From: Anaerolineales bacterium
Lineage (GTDB): Bacteria > Chloroflexota > Anaerolineae > Anaerolineales > Anaerolineaceae
Reading direction: 5' to 3'
DNA length: 23,041 bases
Assembly: GCA_020060485.1 (NCBI GenBank)
Contig: JAGVAB010000121.1
Span: forward strand, 1-23,041
The position numbers and the translations under genes are program-made. Below the pieces are notes generated by a model. The model did not search any database. It was not told where the DNA came from and worked only from the letters and a program-made list of their open reading frames with translations. This document shows, in pieces, positions 1-21,495 of the stretch (positions are counted from its first letter, which is position 1; each line of letters begins with the position of its first letter).

Positions 1-85
1 CAGCCCATTATCATCAGCATTTTGCATCTACTTTGGTCTGGATGACCTTGACCGTTTTGGAAAATCGTAAATGTCAAGCTTTCTT

Positions 86-11965: not shown

Positions 11966-13099
11966 TTACTGGCCGCTATTTAAAACAAACCAGATATAAA
12001 GCCAAAATGGAACGAGGCCAGCAACCATAATGAAAGCCAAGAAGCCTAAACCAATTGTCGCCCAGTCAATTTGAATCGGAGATTCTTCTTCCAATTGTGG
12101 TTCTGGCGCTGGTGTGGGCCAAGGTATAGAGGCTGCCGGCAGTGTCTCTTCATACATGTCATTGTTTGAATGGTATGGAACAGGCATTGCGGGCGTGGAA
12201 GGAAGATTGGTGCCGGCGGGTAAAAAGGCTGCCCCCCTGTTCAAAGTGAGCCAGTGCTGGAGGAAGCTTTGTAAAATGCGTCCAAATTGCTCGGCTGTTC
12301 TGTAGCGAGAGGCAGGCTCTTTGGAAAGCACTTTCAGCATAATTTGTTCCAGCTCCAGCGGGATTTCCTGGTTGTAAGCACGTGGATGGGCGGGAGCAAT
12401 CCGTTGGTGGGCTTCGATCAATTCCTGAGGGTCATTGGAAGAAAACGGCAATCGGCCAGTCAGCATTTCATACATGATGACGCCCAGAGAATAGACATCT
12501 GATGCTGGCAGCGGGGCTTTGCCAGCGGCCTGCTCGGGCGAGATGTATTGAGGCGATCCCCAAACAAATTCGTTTTGTTCGTCCGGTTGAATGGTGGAGA
12601 GCAAGCGAGAGATGCCGAAATCGGCGACTTTGAGACGGTTTTCCGGAGTGACGAGCAAATTTTGGGGCTTGACATCGCAATGAACCACCCCAGCTCGATG
12701 CGCATAGCCAATTCCCGCTGCCGCCTGGGTGATCAAATTGACAGTTTCTTCAATGCTGAAAACGAGTCCTTCTTCAATTCGCTGGCGAATGATGGTCTTG
12801 AGGTCATTCCCGGGCAGATGTTCCATGACGATATACAGACGCTCTTCATCAAAACCAAAATCGTGCACGGTGACGATATTGGCGTGTGCCAGATTAGCGG
12901 CAGATTTTGCTTCCTGACGAAAGAGAGCCTGCACAGATTCATTTTCTGAATAGTCTTTACGCAGGATCTTGATGGCAACTGTACGATCCAGTAAAGTATC
13001 ATACCCGCGGTAGACAACGGCCATCCCGCCGGTACCAAGAGTCTCTTTGAGTAGATACCTTTTGCCAAGCATTACTGGGTGATATGACATGTTTTCCAT
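11966..13099 (-). CDS. Tail-anchored Ser/Thr protein kinase, non-RD type
   Basis: This is a Hanks-type (PknB/PrkC-like) kinase of 377 aa. The glycine loop GTGGMAVVYRG is at 22-32, VAIK Lys44 pairs with Glu63, the catalytic loop HCDVKPQN is at 140-147, DFG is at 160-162, and SPEQA replaces APE. The HRD Arg is Cys141, so it is a non-RD kinase and may not need activation-loop phosphorylation. Residues 285-345 are a Pro-rich linker. One hydrophobic segment (about 347-372) ends only a few residues before the C-terminus, so there is no external sensor such as PASTA repeats. The first ATG has no ribosome binding site and lies 11 nt after an extended -10; a second ATG at 13090 is preceded by GGAAAAC and could be the real start. 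It is cotranscribed with rpe and divergent from a membrane SH3b gene. Confidence 0.93.
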   Translation of the reverse strand: MENMSYHPVMLGKRYLLKETLGTGGMAVVYRGYDTLLDRTVAIKILRKDYSENESVQALFRQEAKSAANLAHANIVTVHDFGFDEERLYIVMEHLPGNDLKTIIRQRIEEGLVFSIEETVNLITQAAAGIGYAHRAGVVHCDVKPQNLLVTPENRLKVADFGISRLLSTIQPDEQNEFVWGSPQYISPEQAAGKAPLPASDVYSLGVIMYEMLTGRLPFSSNDPQELIEAHQRIAPAHPRAYNQEIPLELEQIMLKVLSKEPASRYRTAEQFGRILQSFLQHWLTLNRGAAFLPAGTNLPSTPAMPVPYHSNNDMYEETLPAASIPWPTPAPEPQLEEESPIQIDWATIGLGFLAFIMVAGLVPFWLYIWFVLNSGQ

Positions 13100-15082: not shown

Positions 15083-15111
15083 TTGCAAATCGCTGGTTTG
15101 GTGTTTATAAT
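15083..15111 (+). promoter_or_regulatory. Sigma-70-type promoter of the signalling operon
   Basis: TTGCAA (15083-15088), a 17-bp spacer, and a perfect TATAAT (15106-15111). It is the best -35/-10 pair in the window. Initiation would be near 15118, about 60 nt upstream of the kinase start and exactly at the ATG of a small ORF. Confidence 0.65.
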
Positions 15112-15117
15112 TTAACC

Positions 15118-15198
15118 ATGTTCGACCAATTATCTGCGATATTGTTATTTTCGGTGCGGGGAAAGAGACAGCGCATAAATGGAGGGAAAGCTGGATAA
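15118..15198 (+). CDS. Possible leaderless upstream ORF overlapping the kinase start
   Basis: This ORF encodes 26 residues (MFDQLSAILLFSVRGKRQRI followed by NGGKAG): a hydrophobic start and a basic end. Its ATG is 6 nt after TATAAT, so it would lie at the very 5' end of the message. It reads in a different frame through the kinase ATG (15179) and stops at 15196-15198, 17 nt inside that gene. The kinase itself has only a distant GGGGAAAG about 13 nt upstream, so translation of this ORF could control kinase expression by termination-reinitiation. No homologue was recognised, and it could also be chance. Confidence 0.3.
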   Translation: MFDQLSAILLFSVRGKRQRINGGKAG

Positions 15199-17074
15199 TC
15201 ACGATCACACCCAAGGTTTTGAGGATGACCTGACATTACCCTCCCAATTGCAGTCTGGTATCACACTGGTCAATCGTTATGCCATTCAGGATGTTATTGG
15301 CCTTGGTGGAATGGGATCGGTCTATCTTGCCAAGGATCTTCATTTTCCTGCTGTTGAAAAACTGGTGGCAGTGAAGGAGATGATCAACTCGGCCCCCGAC
15401 CCTTTGGTGAGGCAAACAATCGTTCGCAATTTTGAGCGGGAAGCGAATATTCTGGTGACCCTGTCGCATCCTTCGATTCCCCAGATCTTTGACTATTTTA
15501 CCCATGACCAGCGTTCTTACCTGGTGTTGGAATATATTCAAGGCAAAGACCTTGAAGCAGTATTGCAGGACACAAAAGGTTTTCTGGATGAAGCACAGGT
15601 GACCGCCTGGGCGGTGGAATTGTGTGATGTTCTGCAATACCTGCATACCTACCAGCCGGAACCGATCATTTTCAGGGATATGAAGCCCTCCAATGTGATG
15701 ATCAATCACCAAAAGCACATCTTCCTGGTGGATTTTGGGATCGCCAAAACTTTCCGGATGGGGCAAAAAGGAACGATGATCGGCACGGAGGGGTATTCAC
15801 CTCCTGAACAATACCGGGGGGAGGCCTCGCCTCAGGCGGATGTTTATTCACTGGGTGCCACTTTGCATCATTTATTAACCAAGCACGACCCGCGTTTGGA
15901 AGCGCCATTCACATTTTCAGAACGCCCGATCAGGAAGCTCAACCCGGCTGTTTCAACCGAGGTGGAAGCAGTGATCAACACTGCTTTACAGTATGAACCC
16001 AAAGACAGATTCCAGACTGCTGCCGCCATGAAAGAGGCACTCTTGATGGCAGCCAAGAAGACTGGGATGCTGAATAATACTGCGATCTGGAGTGGGGGCG
16101 GAATACAGTCCGATCAGGAACTCCAACCTGTGTGGACATTCAGCTGTGAGGATGAAATTCGCGGCGCAGCCACGGTGCATAATGGCGTGGTGTATGTTGG
16201 CAGCTACGATAATAATTTATATGCATTGCGGGCTGAAGATGGCCAGTTCTTGTGGAAGTTTGCCGCCGAAGGCAGTATTGCCGGGCAACCACAAGTACAC
16301 AATGGCGTGGTCTATTTCGGTTCAGGGGACTCAAAACTGTATGCGATCTCTGTGCGAAACGGCCGCCTGTTTTGGGAGTATTCTACCGAGGGCCCCATCC
16401 GCAGTTCTCCCAGAATTGCTGATGGGCATGTATTTATTGCTTCAGATGATGGCTTTTTGCATGCAGTGAATCTCACCAGCACGCGACGCGCCTGGCGGGT
16501 GGACCTGGGAGAGCCGGTGCGTTCGACGCCGTTTCTTACCAAGGAGTATATTTACATCGGCAGCGAAAATGGGGAGGTGGTTTGCGCGAATTATCGGGGA
16601 GATGTTCGTTGGCGTTTCAACGCCAAGCGGGCTGTAACGGCTTCTCCGATTGTGGCGGATGATGTGGTTTACTTGACGTCGCTTGATTCAACATTGTATG
16701 CACTGGATGCCAAATCTGGATGGGGAATTTGGAAGTTCCGCATGAATAAAGGGTCTGTTTCAACGCCAGCGAAATTTGAGAATCGGGTGTTCTTTGGGTC
16801 TGCGGATGGTAATTTGTATTGTGTGGAAGACCGGCGAGGGAAAGAGGTCTGGCGCTTCAGTGCGGAAGACCAGGTGAGCGGTTCTCCAATTATCCATAAG
16901 GGTGAGGTATTTTGCGGTGCAGCAGACCATTATTTGTATTGCCTAGATCAGAAAACCGGACGGCTTCAATGGAAATTCGGTACACGCGGCGTGATCACCA
17001 GCGCGCCATGTGTTGAAAAGAACTTGTTGTATATTGGATCATCAGACAGACGTTTTTACGCCTTGCCTGTATAA
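15179..17074 (+). CDS. Soluble Ser/Thr kinase with eight-repeat PQQ-like propeller
   Basis: The 631-aa protein joins a Hanks-type kinase (about 30-300) to a C-terminal propeller (about 320-631). Kinase motifs: GLGGMGSVYLAKD at 41-53, Lys66, Glu88, FRDMKPSN at 165-172 (Phe for the HRD His, as in many bacterial relatives), DFG at 185-187, and YSPPEQYRG. The propeller has eight repeats of about 39 residues, each opening with W-x-F/Y/V and carrying the pattern VVYxGSxDxxLYAL, the PQQ/YVTN-type blade. There is no signal peptide or membrane segment, so the propeller is cytoplasmic and probably binds a protein or ligand rather than PQQ. Kinase activity is expected since all core residues are present. 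It heads an operon with PP2C, J-vWA, FHA and response-regulator genes. Confidence 0.95.
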   Translation: MEGKLDNHDHTQGFEDDLTLPSQLQSGITLVNRYAIQDVIGLGGMGSVYLAKDLHFPAVEKLVAVKEMINSAPDPLVRQTIVRNFEREANILVTLSHPSIPQIFDYFTHDQRSYLVLEYIQGKDLEAVLQDTKGFLDEAQVTAWAVELCDVLQYLHTYQPEPIIFRDMKPSNVMINHQKHIFLVDFGIAKTFRMGQKGTMIGTEGYSPPEQYRGEASPQADVYSLGATLHHLLTKHDPRLEAPFTFSERPIRKLNPAVSTEVEAVINTALQYEPKDRFQTAAAMKEALLMAAKKTGMLNNTAIWSGGGIQSDQELQPVWTFSCEDEIRGAATVHNGVVYVGSYDNNLYALRAEDGQFLWKFAAEGSIAGQPQVHNGVVYFGSGDSKLYAISVRNGRLFWEYSTEGPIRSSPRIADGHVFIASDDGFLHAVNLTSTRRAWRVDLGEPVRSTPFLTKEYIYIGSENGEVVCANYRGDVRWRFNAKRAVTASPIVADDVVYLTSLDSTLYALDAKSGWGIWKFRMNKGSVSTPAKFENRVFFGSADGNLYCVEDRRGKEVWRFSAEDQVSGSPIIHKGEVFCGAADHYLYCLDQKTGRLQWKFGTRGVITSAPCVEKNLLYIGSSDRRFYALPV

Positions 17075-17110
17075 AGGTCGTCAAAGCGATTGGCTCAAGG
17101 AGGTAAACAC

Positions 17111-18001
17111 GTGCTCACATTTATTAAGAATTTGTTTCGGGCGCAGTCCAGTGCGTCGGTAGAAGTGAAAACAAAACCACTGTCCCGGGAACACCTTAAG
17201 CGGACAGCAGGCGAATCAATGCATGTGGAACCTCAGCAACTGGTCATCGGCTGTGGGCAGTCTGTGGGCAGGCAACGCGATCACAATGAAGATTCATTGT
17301 TTGCCATGACGTCGGTTATGTCGGACGGCGAAATGGAATTGCCATTTGGGATATTCATTGTGTCGGACGGTATGGGCGGACATCAACATGGCGAGGTGGC
17401 CAGCAGTGTTGCCACGCGGGTGATGGCGGAACACCTGGTGCGGGAGGTTTACTCACGAGTGATTTCCCCCTCTATTGCCAATATTGAGAGTCTGCATGAA
17501 ATCATGGAAGAAGGTGTGCGCAAGGCTCAGCAGGCTGTGTTGAGCAAGGCGCCTGGTGGTGGAACCACGCTTACCGTGGCGCTGGTACTTGGGGAAAGGA
17601 TCACGCTGGCGCATATTGGCGACAGCCGGGCGTATTTGATCAGGCCTGACGAAAAACTGGAAGCGATAACGAAAGATCATTCGCTGGTAGGCAGACTGAT
17701 TGAGTTGGGCCAAATCACGGAAGAAGAAGCGGCGATCCACCCGCAACGCAATGTGTTATATCGCGCACTTGGACAAGCAGAACCATTTGAACCTGATCTT
17801 GATATGCAGGTCTTTCCCATACCGGGGATATTAATGCTTTGCAGCGACGGGCTTTGGGGAGTTGTGGCAGAAAGCGATATCTGCAGGATTGTTGAGAATT
17901 CCTCTTCCCTACCGGAAGCTTGTAAAAATTTGGTGGATGCGGCCAATGAAGCAGGCGGCCCGGATAATATCAGTGTAATTTTGGTTGAGTATCTGGATTA
18001 G
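17111..18001 (+). CDS. PP2C-type Ser/Thr protein phosphatase
   Basis: The metal-dependent (Mn/Mg) protein phosphatase probably reverses the kinase encoded upstream. The 296-aa product has all PP2C motifs: GRQRDHNEDS (Asp61), VSDGMGGH (Asp86), GGTTLTVALV, AHIGDSRAYLI, TKDHSLVGRLIELGQI, LCSDGLWGVV and GGPDNISVILVEY. Its N-terminal 40 residues are basic and unconserved; no membrane segment is seen, so it is cytosolic. The frame is open to a TTG at 17090, but a perfect AAGGAGGT (17097-17104) lies 6 nt before GTG at 17111, so I chose GTG. It follows the kinase by 36 bp and precedes the J-domain gene by 14 bp. A prpC-like symbol is possible, but the partner is not a PASTA kinase. Confidence 0.95.
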   Translation: MLTFIKNLFRAQSSASVEVKTKPLSREHLKRTAGESMHVEPQQLVIGCGQSVGRQRDHNEDSLFAMTSVMSDGEMELPFGIFIVSDGMGGHQHGEVASSVATRVMAEHLVREVYSRVISPSIANIESLHEIMEEGVRKAQQAVLSKAPGGGTTLTVALVLGERITLAHIGDSRAYLIRPDEKLEAITKDHSLVGRLIELGQITEEEAAIHPQRNVLYRALGQAEPFEPDLDMQVFPIPGILMLCSDGLWGVVAESDICRIVENSSSLPEACKNLVDAANEAGGPDNISVILVEYLD

Positions 18002-18015
18002 AAGGCGGGGTGTGC

Positions 18016-19488
18016 ATGTGCGACTATTATCGCACTTTGGGAATTGAGAAAGACGCCAGTAAGGATGAGATACGCGATGCGTATTATGAGGCTGCGCGTC
18101 AAAAGCACCCTGATGCCAGCAAGGATCCAGCGACAGAAGAACAGTTTCTCGAGATACAGAAGGCATATGAAGTACTCATTGACCCGGTGCAACGGGCAAT
18201 GTATGATGCCAGCCTTGAAAAAGAGACAGGGCAGCCTGAGGTCGTTGTGGACACGATTTATAGCAGCCCTGTACTGGCAAGACTGGATGAGCCGCAATTG
18301 GTTTATGCGGTTATGACCATTGGCTGCAAAGGTGATTTCGCTGAATTCAAAAGAGTGCCAGCCAATATTTGCCTGGTCGTAGACAAATCGACCTCCATGG
18401 AGGGTGACCGGCTGGAGGTTATTAAGCGGAATATCTTTAAGTTGTTTGAGAGATTAGATGGTGAAGATATTTTCAGCCTGGTTACCTTCAATGATCGGGC
18501 TGAAGTGGTAATCCCGCCAACCCTGGCGGTAAACCTGCCATCATTGAAGAAACAGGTTTCCGGGATCAAGGCTGAGGGTGGCACAGAAATTTTTCAGGGC
18601 TTGATTCGGGGGTATGAGACTCTATCGCATGCCAGCCTAAAGGCAGGAGGGCGGTATCTGGTCATATTGACCGACGGACATACTTATGGGGATGAGACCT
18701 CATGCTACGCAATGGCTCGAACGGCAGCCCAGGAAGGGATTGTGATCCAGGCGTTGGGGATTGGGCATGAATGGAACGACAATTTCCTGGACCGCCTGAC
18801 CGGCCTGAGCGGCGGTTCGGCTCAATTTATTAATTCTCCCGAAGATTTGTTAAACAGCCTGGACAAACGGCTGAATTCACTCGGCTCGATTTATGCCAAT
18901 CACCTTCGCTTGCAGTTTGAGGACAACAATGATTGCGCGATTCGTACCATTTTCCGACTAGCACCGGATTCTTCACCGCTGAGTACGGAGAACCCGATTA
19001 CATTGGGAAATCTTGATTATCAAAGAAAGCAAGTCTATTTAATTGAATTCCTGGTTTCTCCGCCACAGAAGCCAGTACGGCGGATAGACCTTTTACGCGG
19101 AGAACTTGTCATGTCTGTGATCCGCAAGAATGCCGAGGTGCGTTTCCCCTGCCGGCTTAGGCGGGAAATTGTCGATTCGGTGGATGGAGAGGCGCCACCC
19201 GATGAGATCATGAAGGCTGTCTCCCGGTTGACGTTGTATCGATTGCAGGGAAAAGCGCGCACTGCGCTTATGGAAAACAACACTACAGAGGCAACACGCT
19301 ATTTGCAGAATCTGGCAACCCATTTGCTTTCTCAAGGCAATCCCAAGATGGCCAAGACAGTTTTGAAAGAAGTTGAAGCCATTCAGGAGACGGGCCATTT
19401 CAGTAAGTATGGAGACAAAAACCTGAAATACGGAACAAGAGCATTGATGCTGCCGGCTGAAAATGGCGGGCAAGAGGGGATAACATGA
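18016..19488 (+). CDS. J-domain / von Willebrand A (vWA) fusion protein
   Basis: The 490-aa protein starts with a J domain (3-68) with an intact HPD at 31-33, the motif that stimulates DnaK/Hsp70 ATPase. A vWA domain follows at about 115-285, with a complete MIDAS: DKSTS at 123-127, Thr190 in EGGTE and Asp220 in LTDGHTYGDE, so metal-dependent protein binding is expected. Residues 290-400 form a beta-rich segment, and the C-terminus (about 390-470) is helical and TPR-like (ARTALMENNTTEATRYL). There is no Gly/Phe region, zinc finger, signal peptide or membrane segment, so it is not a canonical DnaJ. The frame opens at a GTG (18010), but the ATG at 18016 with GGCGGGG upstream suits the J domain. 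It overlaps the FHA gene by 4 nt. Function is unknown; a chaperone-linked scaffold in a phosphorylation circuit is my inference. Confidence 0.88.
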   Translation: MCDYYRTLGIEKDASKDEIRDAYYEAARQKHPDASKDPATEEQFLEIQKAYEVLIDPVQRAMYDASLEKETGQPEVVVDTIYSSPVLARLDEPQLVYAVMTIGCKGDFAEFKRVPANICLVVDKSTSMEGDRLEVIKRNIFKLFERLDGEDIFSLVTFNDRAEVVIPPTLAVNLPSLKKQVSGIKAEGGTEIFQGLIRGYETLSHASLKAGGRYLVILTDGHTYGDETSCYAMARTAAQEGIVIQALGIGHEWNDNFLDRLTGLSGGSAQFINSPEDLLNSLDKRLNSLGSIYANHLRLQFEDNNDCAIRTIFRLAPDSSPLSTENPITLGNLDYQRKQVYLIEFLVSPPQKPVRRIDLLRGELVMSVIRKNAEVRFPCRLRREIVDSVDGEAPPDEIMKAVSRLTLYRLQGKARTALMENNTTEATRYLQNLATHLLSQGNPKMAKTVLKEVEAIQETGHFSKYGDKNLKYGTRALMLPAENGGQEGIT

Positions 19489-20000
19489 TTATCTGTCCAA
19501 ATTGCCACCATCAGGAATATGCCGGTGCGTTATTTTGTTCTGAGTGTGCAGCGCAACTGGTGGTTACGGAAAAGAACTATGTAGTGGGTGCTACTGATAT
19601 CATCAGTGACTCTGAAATCGATCTTTTGGCCACACGAAGGGAAAAAAGTCAGGGAATTAAACCGCAAGGTGAGGAAATTCACTTGAAGATCATGGTTGAC
19701 GGGTCGATGGTTAAGCTTTCCGGAACCCGGGAATTCACAATTGGGCGGGGCGTGAAGGGACAATTGATCCTGCCTGATATTGATCTGGGGCTTTATGATG
19801 CATTTTCCTTGGGGGTATCACGGTTGCATGCTGTGATGAAACTGAACCAGGATATGGTCATAATCATGGATTTGGGTTCTTCCAATGGCACCTGGATCAA
19901 CGGTCACAGAATTGAACCTCATGTGGAAAGTGAACTTAGCCATGGCGACATTGTCGCATTGGGTAAGCTCCAATTTGAAGTGTTGTTCGATGTGAAATAG
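19485..20000 (+). CDS. Zinc-ribbon / FHA domain protein
   Basis: The 171-aa soluble protein has an N-terminal zinc ribbon (CPNC at 4-7, CSEC at 18-21) and a linker. A forkhead-associated domain spans about 67-170: FTIGRG at 84-89, VSRLHA at 111-116, DLGSSNGTWINGHRI at 129-143 and HGDIVALGKLQFEV. Arg88, Ser112/Arg113, His115 and Asn134 match the phosphothreonine-binding set of known FHA domains, so it should read Thr phosphorylation. The linker holds Thr28 and Thr37 as possible kinase targets; this is inference from GarA-like proteins, without a matching motif. The ATG overlaps the stop of the J-vWA gene (ATGA) and has GAGGGG 5 nt upstream. Confidence 0.93.
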   Translation: MIICPNCHHQEYAGALFCSECAAQLVVTEKNYVVGATDIISDSEIDLLATRREKSQGIKPQGEEIHLKIMVDGSMVKLSGTREFTIGRGVKGQLILPDIDLGLYDAFSLGVSRLHAVMKLNQDMVIIMDLGSSNGTWINGHRIEPHVESELSHGDIVALGKLQFEVLFDVK

Positions 20001-20013
20001 AGGATAAGCCAAA

Positions 20014-20256
20014 ATGCCAATGTTAATTTTGCATATTCAAAATGAGCCGGCAGTCATTGGGGAGGCAGACACAATGCCTTCACCTACCGATACGATGATC
20101 GGCATACGAAATCCCACCCGGCTTGACGGGAAGGAGCTGGATTATCTTGATTCCAGAGTGAACTTTGTCGTGTGGCCATTAATCCGGTTGAATTTCATTG
20201 AGATCGTGCCATCTGGAGAGGAAGAAGAGATCATTTCGTTCGTGCGGGAGAAATGA
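20014..20256 (+). CDS. Conserved-looking 80-aa protein of unknown function
   Basis: I do not recognise a family. The 80-aa product is soluble, acidic, and has a strand-rich pattern: a short hydrophobic strand (MLILHI), then MPSPTDTMIGIRNPTRLDGKEL, then VNFVVWPLIRLNFIEIVPSGEEEEIISF. Alternating hydrophobic residues suggest a small beta-barrel. It is a real gene because it has AGAGGA 9 nt before its ATG, starts 13 bp after the FHA gene, and shares an ATGA overlap with the response-regulator gene. Its fixed place between an FHA reader and a response regulator suggests an accessory or adaptor role, but nothing in the sequence proves it. Confidence 0.75.
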   Translation: MPMLILHIQNEPAVIGEADTMPSPTDTMIGIRNPTRLDGKELDYLDSRVNFVVWPLIRLNFIEIVPSGEEEEIISFVREK

Positions 20257-20990
20257 CAATGGGTGAGGATCAATTTGCTAATAGCACAATTTTGGTGGTG
20301 GATGACGAAGAACGCATGGCGCGCTTCATCCGTTTGAACCTGGAATATGATGGCTTTCAGGTGCTGGAGGCTTATCGTGGAATGGATGCTATTCACGTCC
20401 TGCGCGACAAGATGCCAGATATGGTCTTGCTGGATGTGATGCTGCCAGACCTGGATGGTTTTGAAGTGTTGAAGACCATTCGGGAAGTCAGCACTGTGCC
20501 GGTGATCATGCTGACTGCGAAGGGTGAAGAAGACGACCGGGTGCAGGGACTGGAACTGGGAGCGGATGATTACATCACCAAGCCATTTTCACCACGCGAG
20601 CTGGTTAGCCGGGTGAAGGCAGTTCTGCGACGAACAGAGCTGGCTGGCACAACCGGGACGCATGATGTCATCAAGGTGGACGACCGTTTGAAAATTGATT
20701 TTGGGCGCAGGGAAGTGTGGGTGGATGATGAACTGGTGAAGTTGCGTCCAACGGAGTATCGATTGTTATATCATTTGGTGCAAAATGCTGGCTGGGTGAT
20801 GACATATGATCAAATTCTGTCAAAGGTGTGGGGCTATGAATACCGGGACGAACCGCATTATGTGCGTTTGTATGTGAACTATCTGCGCCAGAAACTGGAG
20901 GAAGATACTTCCAATCCAAAATATATCCTCACAGAGCGCGGGGTAGGGTACCGGTTTGTGGATTTTCACCGTTCTCAATTGGGTGAATAA
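20253..20990 (+). CDS. OmpR/PhoB-family response regulator (orphan)
   Basis: The 245-aa protein has a receiver domain (13-125) with acidic pair Asp17/Asp18, phosphoacceptor Asp61 in LLDVMLPD, Thr88, and Lys110 in TKPF. A winged-helix DNA-binding domain follows (about 145-240), with RPTEYRLLYHLV, HYVRLYVNYLRQKLE and the wing ILTERGVGYRF. All catalytic residues of the receiver are intact, so it should be phosphorylatable, yet no histidine kinase gene is beside it. It is the last gene of the Ser/Thr signalling operon and overlaps the preceding small gene by 4 nt. An 11-bp-period TTAAGA repeat upstream of the operon promoter is a candidate site for it. No terminator hairpin is evident after it. 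Confidence 0.96.
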   Translation: MTMGEDQFANSTILVVDDEERMARFIRLNLEYDGFQVLEAYRGMDAIHVLRDKMPDMVLLDVMLPDLDGFEVLKTIREVSTVPVIMLTAKGEEDDRVQGLELGADDYITKPFSPRELVSRVKAVLRRTELAGTTGTHDVIKVDDRLKIDFGRREVWVDDELVKLRPTEYRLLYHLVQNAGWVMTYDQILSKVWGYEYRDEPHYVRLYVNYLRQKLEEDTSNPKYILTERGVGYRFVDFHRSQLGE

Positions 20991-21147
20991 AGAGTGGGTT
21001 GTGGCAGTCTGATTAGGAATGAAAGATTGAGGGAGAAAGGGTGAGGTTTCGGAAAAAAATCAGGCCAATTAATTTGATTATTATGGTAATATTATATTGT
21101 ATTTACGGAATCCATTATTCGTATCAGTGGTACTCAGGAGAAAAAAT

Positions 21148-21495
21148 ATGTACACAGAGCCAATCGATGTAACCGATGATGAATTTGAAGAGACTGTTTT
21201 GCAGTCTTCGTTGCCGATCGTGGTGGATTTTTGGGCTGAGTGGTGCGGGCCTTGCCGGATGGTCGCCCCGACATTAAAGAAATTTGCCAGTGAATATACA
21301 GGCAAGTTGATCGTTGCCAAAGTTGACACCGATAAAAATTCAAAATGGGCACACGAATACAATGTGCAGGGTATTCCGACTATGTTGTTCATCCACAATG
21401 GAAAGATAATTCACCGGCAACAGGGCGCATTACCGGAAGGCATGCTGCGCCGGGTGGTGGATGATTTTCTGACAACAGTTGAGGAAAGCAAATAG
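21148..21495 (+). CDS. Thioredoxin-family protein
   Basis: Thioredoxins reduce disulfides in cytosolic proteins. The 115-aa product has the WAEWCGPCRM active site (Cys33, Cys36), the VDTDKN segment, and the cis-Pro loop GIPTM. It lacks a signal peptide or membrane anchor, so it is cytosolic. The frame is open to 21097, but ATG at 21148 has CAGGAG 7 nt upstream and gives a normal thioredoxin length. The N-terminal segment (MYTEPIDVTDDEFEE) is typical. The 157-bp gap from the response-regulator gene is A/T-rich, with TTGATT at 21074 among other candidates, so it probably has its own promoter. A strong terminator follows. Confidence 0.95.
   Translation: MYTEPIDVTDDEFEETVLQSSLPIVVDFWAEWCGPCRMVAPTLKKFASEYTGKLIVAKVDTDKNSKWAHEYNVQGIPTMLFIHNGKIIHRQQGALPEGMLRRVVDDFLTTVEESK

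Follow-up and report, generated by a model that had tools for sequence, protein, structure and literature searches.

Six closely spaced genes on contig JAGVAB010000121.1 of an Anaerolineales bacterium (Chloroflexota; assembly GCA_020060485.1) raise the question of what the signalling proteins that they encode could be doing together. The stretch analysed, called the window below, comprises 23,041 nucleotides; the genes lie at 15179-20990 on the + strand and encode, in this order, a Ser/Thr kinase, a PP2C-type phosphatase, a protein that joins a J domain to a vWA domain (J-vWA), a zinc-ribbon protein with an FHA domain, an 80-aa protein and a response regulator. Reasoning by analogy, we consider it probable that they form a bacterial phospho-switch working like ArnA-ArnB of archaea, but one whose writer and eraser are encoded in the same operon.

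A conserved six-gene operon

The six open reading frames (ORFs) of the original prediction keep their coordinates and strand, with intergenic gaps of 36, 14, -4, 13 and -4 nt (the PP2C gene starting with GTG at 17111 and the J-vWA gene with ATG at 18016), and Pfam agrees with the domains first assigned to the kinase, PP2C, J-vWA, FHA and regulator proteins. A search with the J-vWA protein gave 1587 relatives at E<=0.001 from 7998 scored candidates, 120 of which, the window protein included, were listed. Neighbourhoods were compared for the best 80 of 401 relatives' loci, one genome per species, a set biased towards the best matches. The order kinase-PP2C-vWA-FHA-80aa-regulator on a single strand is intact in 70 of these 80 loci. 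Cultured species with the cassette include Anaerolinea thermolimosa (L004) and Longilinea arvoryzae (L014). Among the exceptions, L016, L021, L030, L051, L053, L054 and L073 stop at a contig border, which in L039 cuts the regulator; the regulator frame is split in L068, and L036 has an extra FHA-type gene (L036:11976-13199), inserted after the FHA gene and before that of the 80-aa protein. Since 70 of 80 relatives share the gene order, the association of the six genes is more than chance, and the operon is real and highly conserved. The search did not find these genes seldom adjacent in relatives, the outcome that had been named as damaging at the outset, and the kept order bears out a single operon of writer, eraser, reader and vWA partner.

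The vWA and FHA genes are particularly close. In the window and the 80 loci, all 79 vWA-FHA pairs are separated by 60 nt or less (median -4 nt), and 50 of them overlap by exactly 4 nt. A candidate promoter, TTGCAA-17 nt-TATAAT, is found upstream of the kinase gene (15083..15111, +). When the surroundings of the kinase start were scanned, from 300 nt ahead of it to 100 nt into the gene, the form TTGCA[A/T]-16..18-TATAAT was present in 38/72 loci and a looser TTGNNN form in 56/72, against 0/613 and 2/613 cassette-internal control windows, which are coding DNA, so that the contrast is partly one of composition. The best 19-residue hydropathy of the six window proteins is 0.92-1.61, so that all six are without a strong transmembrane segment and the system looks cytosolic; among relatives, hydropathy exceeds 1.8 in 3/96 kinases and 3/144 vWA ORFs. 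No publication describing this gene set was found in openly licensed PMC text; subscription papers could still hold one.

The candidate phospho-switch

The putative writer is a 631-aa, cytosolic Ser/Thr kinase (15179..17074, +; Pfam Pkinase, 1.7e-41) with a C-terminal BamB/PQQ-type beta-propeller. In the alignments of relatives, which here and below take in some paralogues, its catalytic Lys is kept in 92/96 sequences (4 gaps), the catalytic Asp in 94/96 (2 gaps) and DFG in 95/96 (1 gap). The eraser would be a 296-aa PP2C-type Ser/Thr phosphatase with a GTG start (17111..18001, +; Pfam PP2C, 1.3e-17). The Asp residues of its GDS, SDG and GGxDN motifs are present in 134/134 sequences, and the Stp1/IreP model scores it at 217 bits, slightly below the cut-off of 230. 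A second Ser/Thr kinase is encoded in the window at 11966-13099 (-); its neighbours are a ribulose-phosphate epimerase and a 142-aa ORF that is uncharacterised. Many relatives show weaker kinase matches upstream of the cassette on the opposite strand.

The J-vWA protein (490 aa; 18016..19488, +; Pfam DnaJ, 2e-21, and VWA, 6.7e-18) has an ArnB-like fold match over the whole region after the J domain, and the vWA metal ion-dependent adhesion site (MIDAS) residues are kept across aligned relatives. In Pfam, the window protein is not listed for ArnB_C (PF18677) at E<=10, and L125 reaches E 0.27 across 17 residues. The last helix of the helical bundle contains Thr474, within the motif KYGTRxL (codon at 19435..19437, +). 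This residue is invariant in 119/119 cassette orthologues, in 127/130 proteins once other vWA relatives are added, and in 118/120 listed database relatives, where one exception is truncated and the other has a garbled end. Such conservation suggests that Thr474 is a candidate phospho-site for the FHA domain. Source databases call many J-vWA relatives 'Ca-activated chloride channel', a label that is probably misleading. One database protein that fuses J-vWA and FHA (P0053) looks like a frameshift artefact.

The ArnA-like partner is a 171-aa protein with an N-terminal zinc ribbon and an FHA domain (19485..20000, +; Pfam FHA, 4.7e-16). FHA domains read phosphothreonine with a preference at the +3 position. 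The ribbon, already noted in the original prediction, has a sub-threshold Pfam score (Zn_Ribbon_1, 0.0011), but four cysteines that are invariant in 132/132 aligned relatives. The FHA residues are also kept: Arg in 132/132, and Ser, His and Asn in 131/132. The ArnA structures 5a8i/8s05_C were matched weakly (E 0.008-0.009), as the last of 28.

These features suggest the following scheme. The kinase would sense a signal through its propeller and phosphorylate Thr residues in the C-terminal bundle of the vWA protein, with Thr474 as the best candidate. The ArnA-like partner may use its zinc ribbon to hold the unphosphorylated vWA protein and would bind the phosphorylated bundle with its FHA domain; this step rests on the ArnAB analogy and the fold comes from a model, while the gene pairing and the binding-site residues are observed directly. 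PP2C would then reset the switch. The 80-aa protein, which is seen paired with the kinase and the FHA protein, is a companion of both and probably acts as an adaptor through its conserved tail.

Constant and lineage-specific parts

The 80-aa protein (20014..20256, +) is predicted to be a small Sm/SH3-like beta-barrel with a conserved acidic/hydrophobic tail, and it has no Pfam match even at E<=10. Its gene is present alongside the switch in most lineages examined, and reduced cassettes in the fetched stretches consist of the kinase and 80-aa genes only, or of the FHA and 80-aa genes only (L153-L161, L163; L162, L164-L171, L181). The original prediction treated this protein as an extra; since in other loci its sole companion from the cassette is either the kinase or the FHA protein, it is a more constant partner than the J domain or the regulator. 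Distant relatives (L173-L175, L177-L180, L182; for example L173:7044-7382, +) have a topoisomerase I gene adjoining in 8/9 loci and dprA nearby in 8/9, and carry a long tail with a terminal acidic/hydrophobic motif, seen in L173, L174 and L177. The neighbours topA and dprA fit a role with nucleic acids. We tentatively suggest that the 80-aa protein might found a family of Sm-like proteins that bind nucleic acids, occur throughout the Chloroflexota and belong to the core of a Ser/Thr kinase module. If so, the kinase/FHA switch would control an Sm-type protein directly, and Hanks-type phosphorylation would be tied to RNA/DNA handling. The 80-aa protein is, in our opinion, the part of the cassette most worth following.

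The J domain and the regulator are distributed differently. The vWA profile is matched at E<=1e-40 in 125 of 400 genomes drawn from the phylum; the match spans the J region in at least 36 genomes, and the remaining matches listed start past it. Thirty further regions were fetched beyond the best 80 loci. Twelve loci (L125-L135, L139; three near-identical) have kinase-PP2C-vWA-FHA-80aa in the same order, with neither the J domain nor the regulator. As they hold the other five genes without either, the J domain and the regulator look like lineage-specific parts and not like the core. Other combinations also occur: L124 has the regulator and no J domain, L118 the J domain and no regulator, and L123 is without PP2C. 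More vWA relatives, which are paralogues or distant orthologues, are found in L136-L138, L140 and L143-L147, where the 80-aa gene is unmatched; in L136 and L137 the PP2C, FHA and kinase genes still stand alongside.

The J domain of the window protein holds the HPD motif (KHPDAS), as do 104 of the 130 fetched vWA proteins, duplicates removed, and 113/120 listed database proteins. Another 22 of the 130 have no J domain, 14 of them beside an 80-aa gene (L124, L125-L135, L139, L142); L116, L121 and L122 have a J-like segment without HPD, and the segment in L144 is unlike a J domain. All 7 losses among the listed proteins fall within the 15 top-ranked relatives, that is, the 16 top-ranked proteins minus the window's own. 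The proteins concerned (P0002, P0003, P0012-P0016) are close relatives, which looks like local decay of the Hsp70 contact. A quick tree of the vWA part requires three changes of J state; its deep forks are weak and it is unrooted. Contact with Hsp70 is plausible for the window protein, but it would not define the function of the cassette, because 7 of the 15 top-ranked relatives no longer carry HPD and the J domain is absent in others. These losses, together with the 12 loci above, are difficult to reconcile with Hsp70 recruitment and transcription control as built-in functions of the unit, as had first been proposed.

The genes that follow the cassette on its own strand were surveyed up to a distance of 1.4 kb, in the 69 loci (window included) where the regulator is present and is followed by 700 nt or more. 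An hsp20 gene is present in 25/69, a thioredoxin gene in 28/69 and either or both in 43/69; a second response regulator follows in 17/69 (the two checked by Pfam are LuxR-type), and 16/69 have none of these. The gene downstream in the window (21097-21495) encodes a thioredoxin according to Pfam, and further examples of a downstream thioredoxin or hsp20 gene are found in L002, L014, L045 and L056. Eight cassette-bearing genomes have only 3-6 hsp20 matches each, so few that a chance association is unlikely, although gene order inherited from a common ancestor plays a part in it. Judged from gene content, the downstream hsp20 and thioredoxin genes support a stress or protein-quality output.

The same neighbours could be read in another way, namely that the operon is a proteostasis sensor in which J-vWA is a specialised Hsp40 bringing DnaK to vWA-bound clients, the kinase and PP2C tune the chaperone, and the FHA and 80-aa proteins regulate it. 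The HPD motif, intact in the window and in most listed proteins, and the hsp20 gene starting 6-228 nt past the regulator in those 25 loci are consistent with this. We nevertheless consider it unlikely, given the 14 loci in which a J-less vWA protein accompanies the 80-aa gene, the three J-like segments that have no HPD, and the motif losses among the top-ranked relatives.

The regulator itself (245 aa; 20253..20990, +; Pfam Response_reg, 2.5e-32, and Trans_reg_C, 1.1e-24) is of the OmpR/PhoB type. Its phospho-acceptor Asp and switch Lys are kept in 105/105 sequences; the nearest NCBIfam models are RpaB, MtrA and YycF, none of which reaches its cut-off. No histidine kinase was found among the 19 window ORFs scanned with Pfam. 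Five genomes with a J-less cassette have a regulator orthologue sited elsewhere, at 61-65% identity (next relatives 40-46%). In L195 (L195:2593-4934), whose vWA cassette is without a regulator, the orthologue lies directly 3' of a GAF-PAS histidine kinase; its surroundings in the other four genomes were partly examined. This placement and the invariant Asp would suit a regulator that answers to a histidine kinase from another part of the genome, the Ser/Thr genes being an independent circuit that shares its promoter. That the parts are co-transcribed yet separate in this manner appears quite improbable to us, as the regulator is the last cassette gene in 70/80 relatives, with a median gap of 3 nt. 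If the genes instead form an ArnA-ArnB-like switch, in Anaerolineae-type genomes it would be coupled to transcription via the OmpR-type regulator and to protein folding via the J domain. The J domain, the regulator and the frequent hsp20 or thioredoxin gene after the cassette together point to a stress or protein-quality response as its most likely output.

Comparison with known systems

Ter-associated triads consist of a kinase, PP2C and the vWA protein TerY, and were at first taken to be the nearest kin. The three protein classes do occur together in both, but a Ter-type stress triad is highly improbable here, as the vWA protein bears a J domain, matches an ArnB-like fold across the whole region past it, and no Ter family appears in the Pfam scans of the 19 window ORFs or when the vWA protein is scanned with the limit relaxed to E<=10 (relatives were not searched for Ter genes); ArnA-ArnB is nearer. 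In AfsK-type kinases of Streptomyces, the kinase is followed by a PQQ-type propeller, as here, and AfsK (NF053615) is the nearest NCBIfam model for the window kinase, at 237.9 bits under a cut-off of 1300. To our knowledge, AfsK has no vWA, FHA or 80-aa partners. Catenulispora acidiphila has a von Willebrand protein (4fx5) that aligns solely to the region after the J domain. Finally, one study (PMC7159879) describes GAP1-N2 neighbourhoods, predicted bacterial systems with a kinase, PP2C and a stand-alone vWA protein, and others with DnaJ fusions. The classes of parts are alike, but DnaJ is fused there to an FNIII-repeat protein, and no GTPase or FNIII family was found in the scanned window ORFs (GAP1 was not searched by name).

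In Sulfolobus acidocaldarius, a Hanks kinase (ArnC) and a Ser/Thr phosphatase (PP2A) act on the ArnA-ArnB pair (PMC12852372, PMC6509490). The window proteins share with ArnB a vWA domain within a beta-sandwich followed by a C-terminal helical bundle, and with ArnA an N-terminal zinc ribbon and a C-terminal FHA domain, although the ArnA finger is described as RanBP2-type (PMC12852372) and the ribbon here is generic. The vWA and FHA genes are adjacent in both. Unlike in the archaeal system, the kinase and phosphatase are encoded inside the operon, the kinase has a propeller, and a J domain, the 80-aa barrel protein and the OmpR-type regulator are added. The phosphatase is PP2C and not PP2A, and for this reason we do not file the operon in the archaellum regulatory network. 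The authors of the ArnAB structures judged most ArnB-like proteins elsewhere to be outside such phosphorylation circuits (PMC12852372). If our interpretation is true, it would offer a functional hypothesis both for an orphan family of small proteins, that of the 80-aa protein, and for proteins labelled 'Ca-activated chloride channel homolog'. The ArnAB-type switch, known from archaea, would then be a cross-domain module, and the bacterial operon, with its enzymes encoded alongside, would be a compact system in which to test the switch mechanism.
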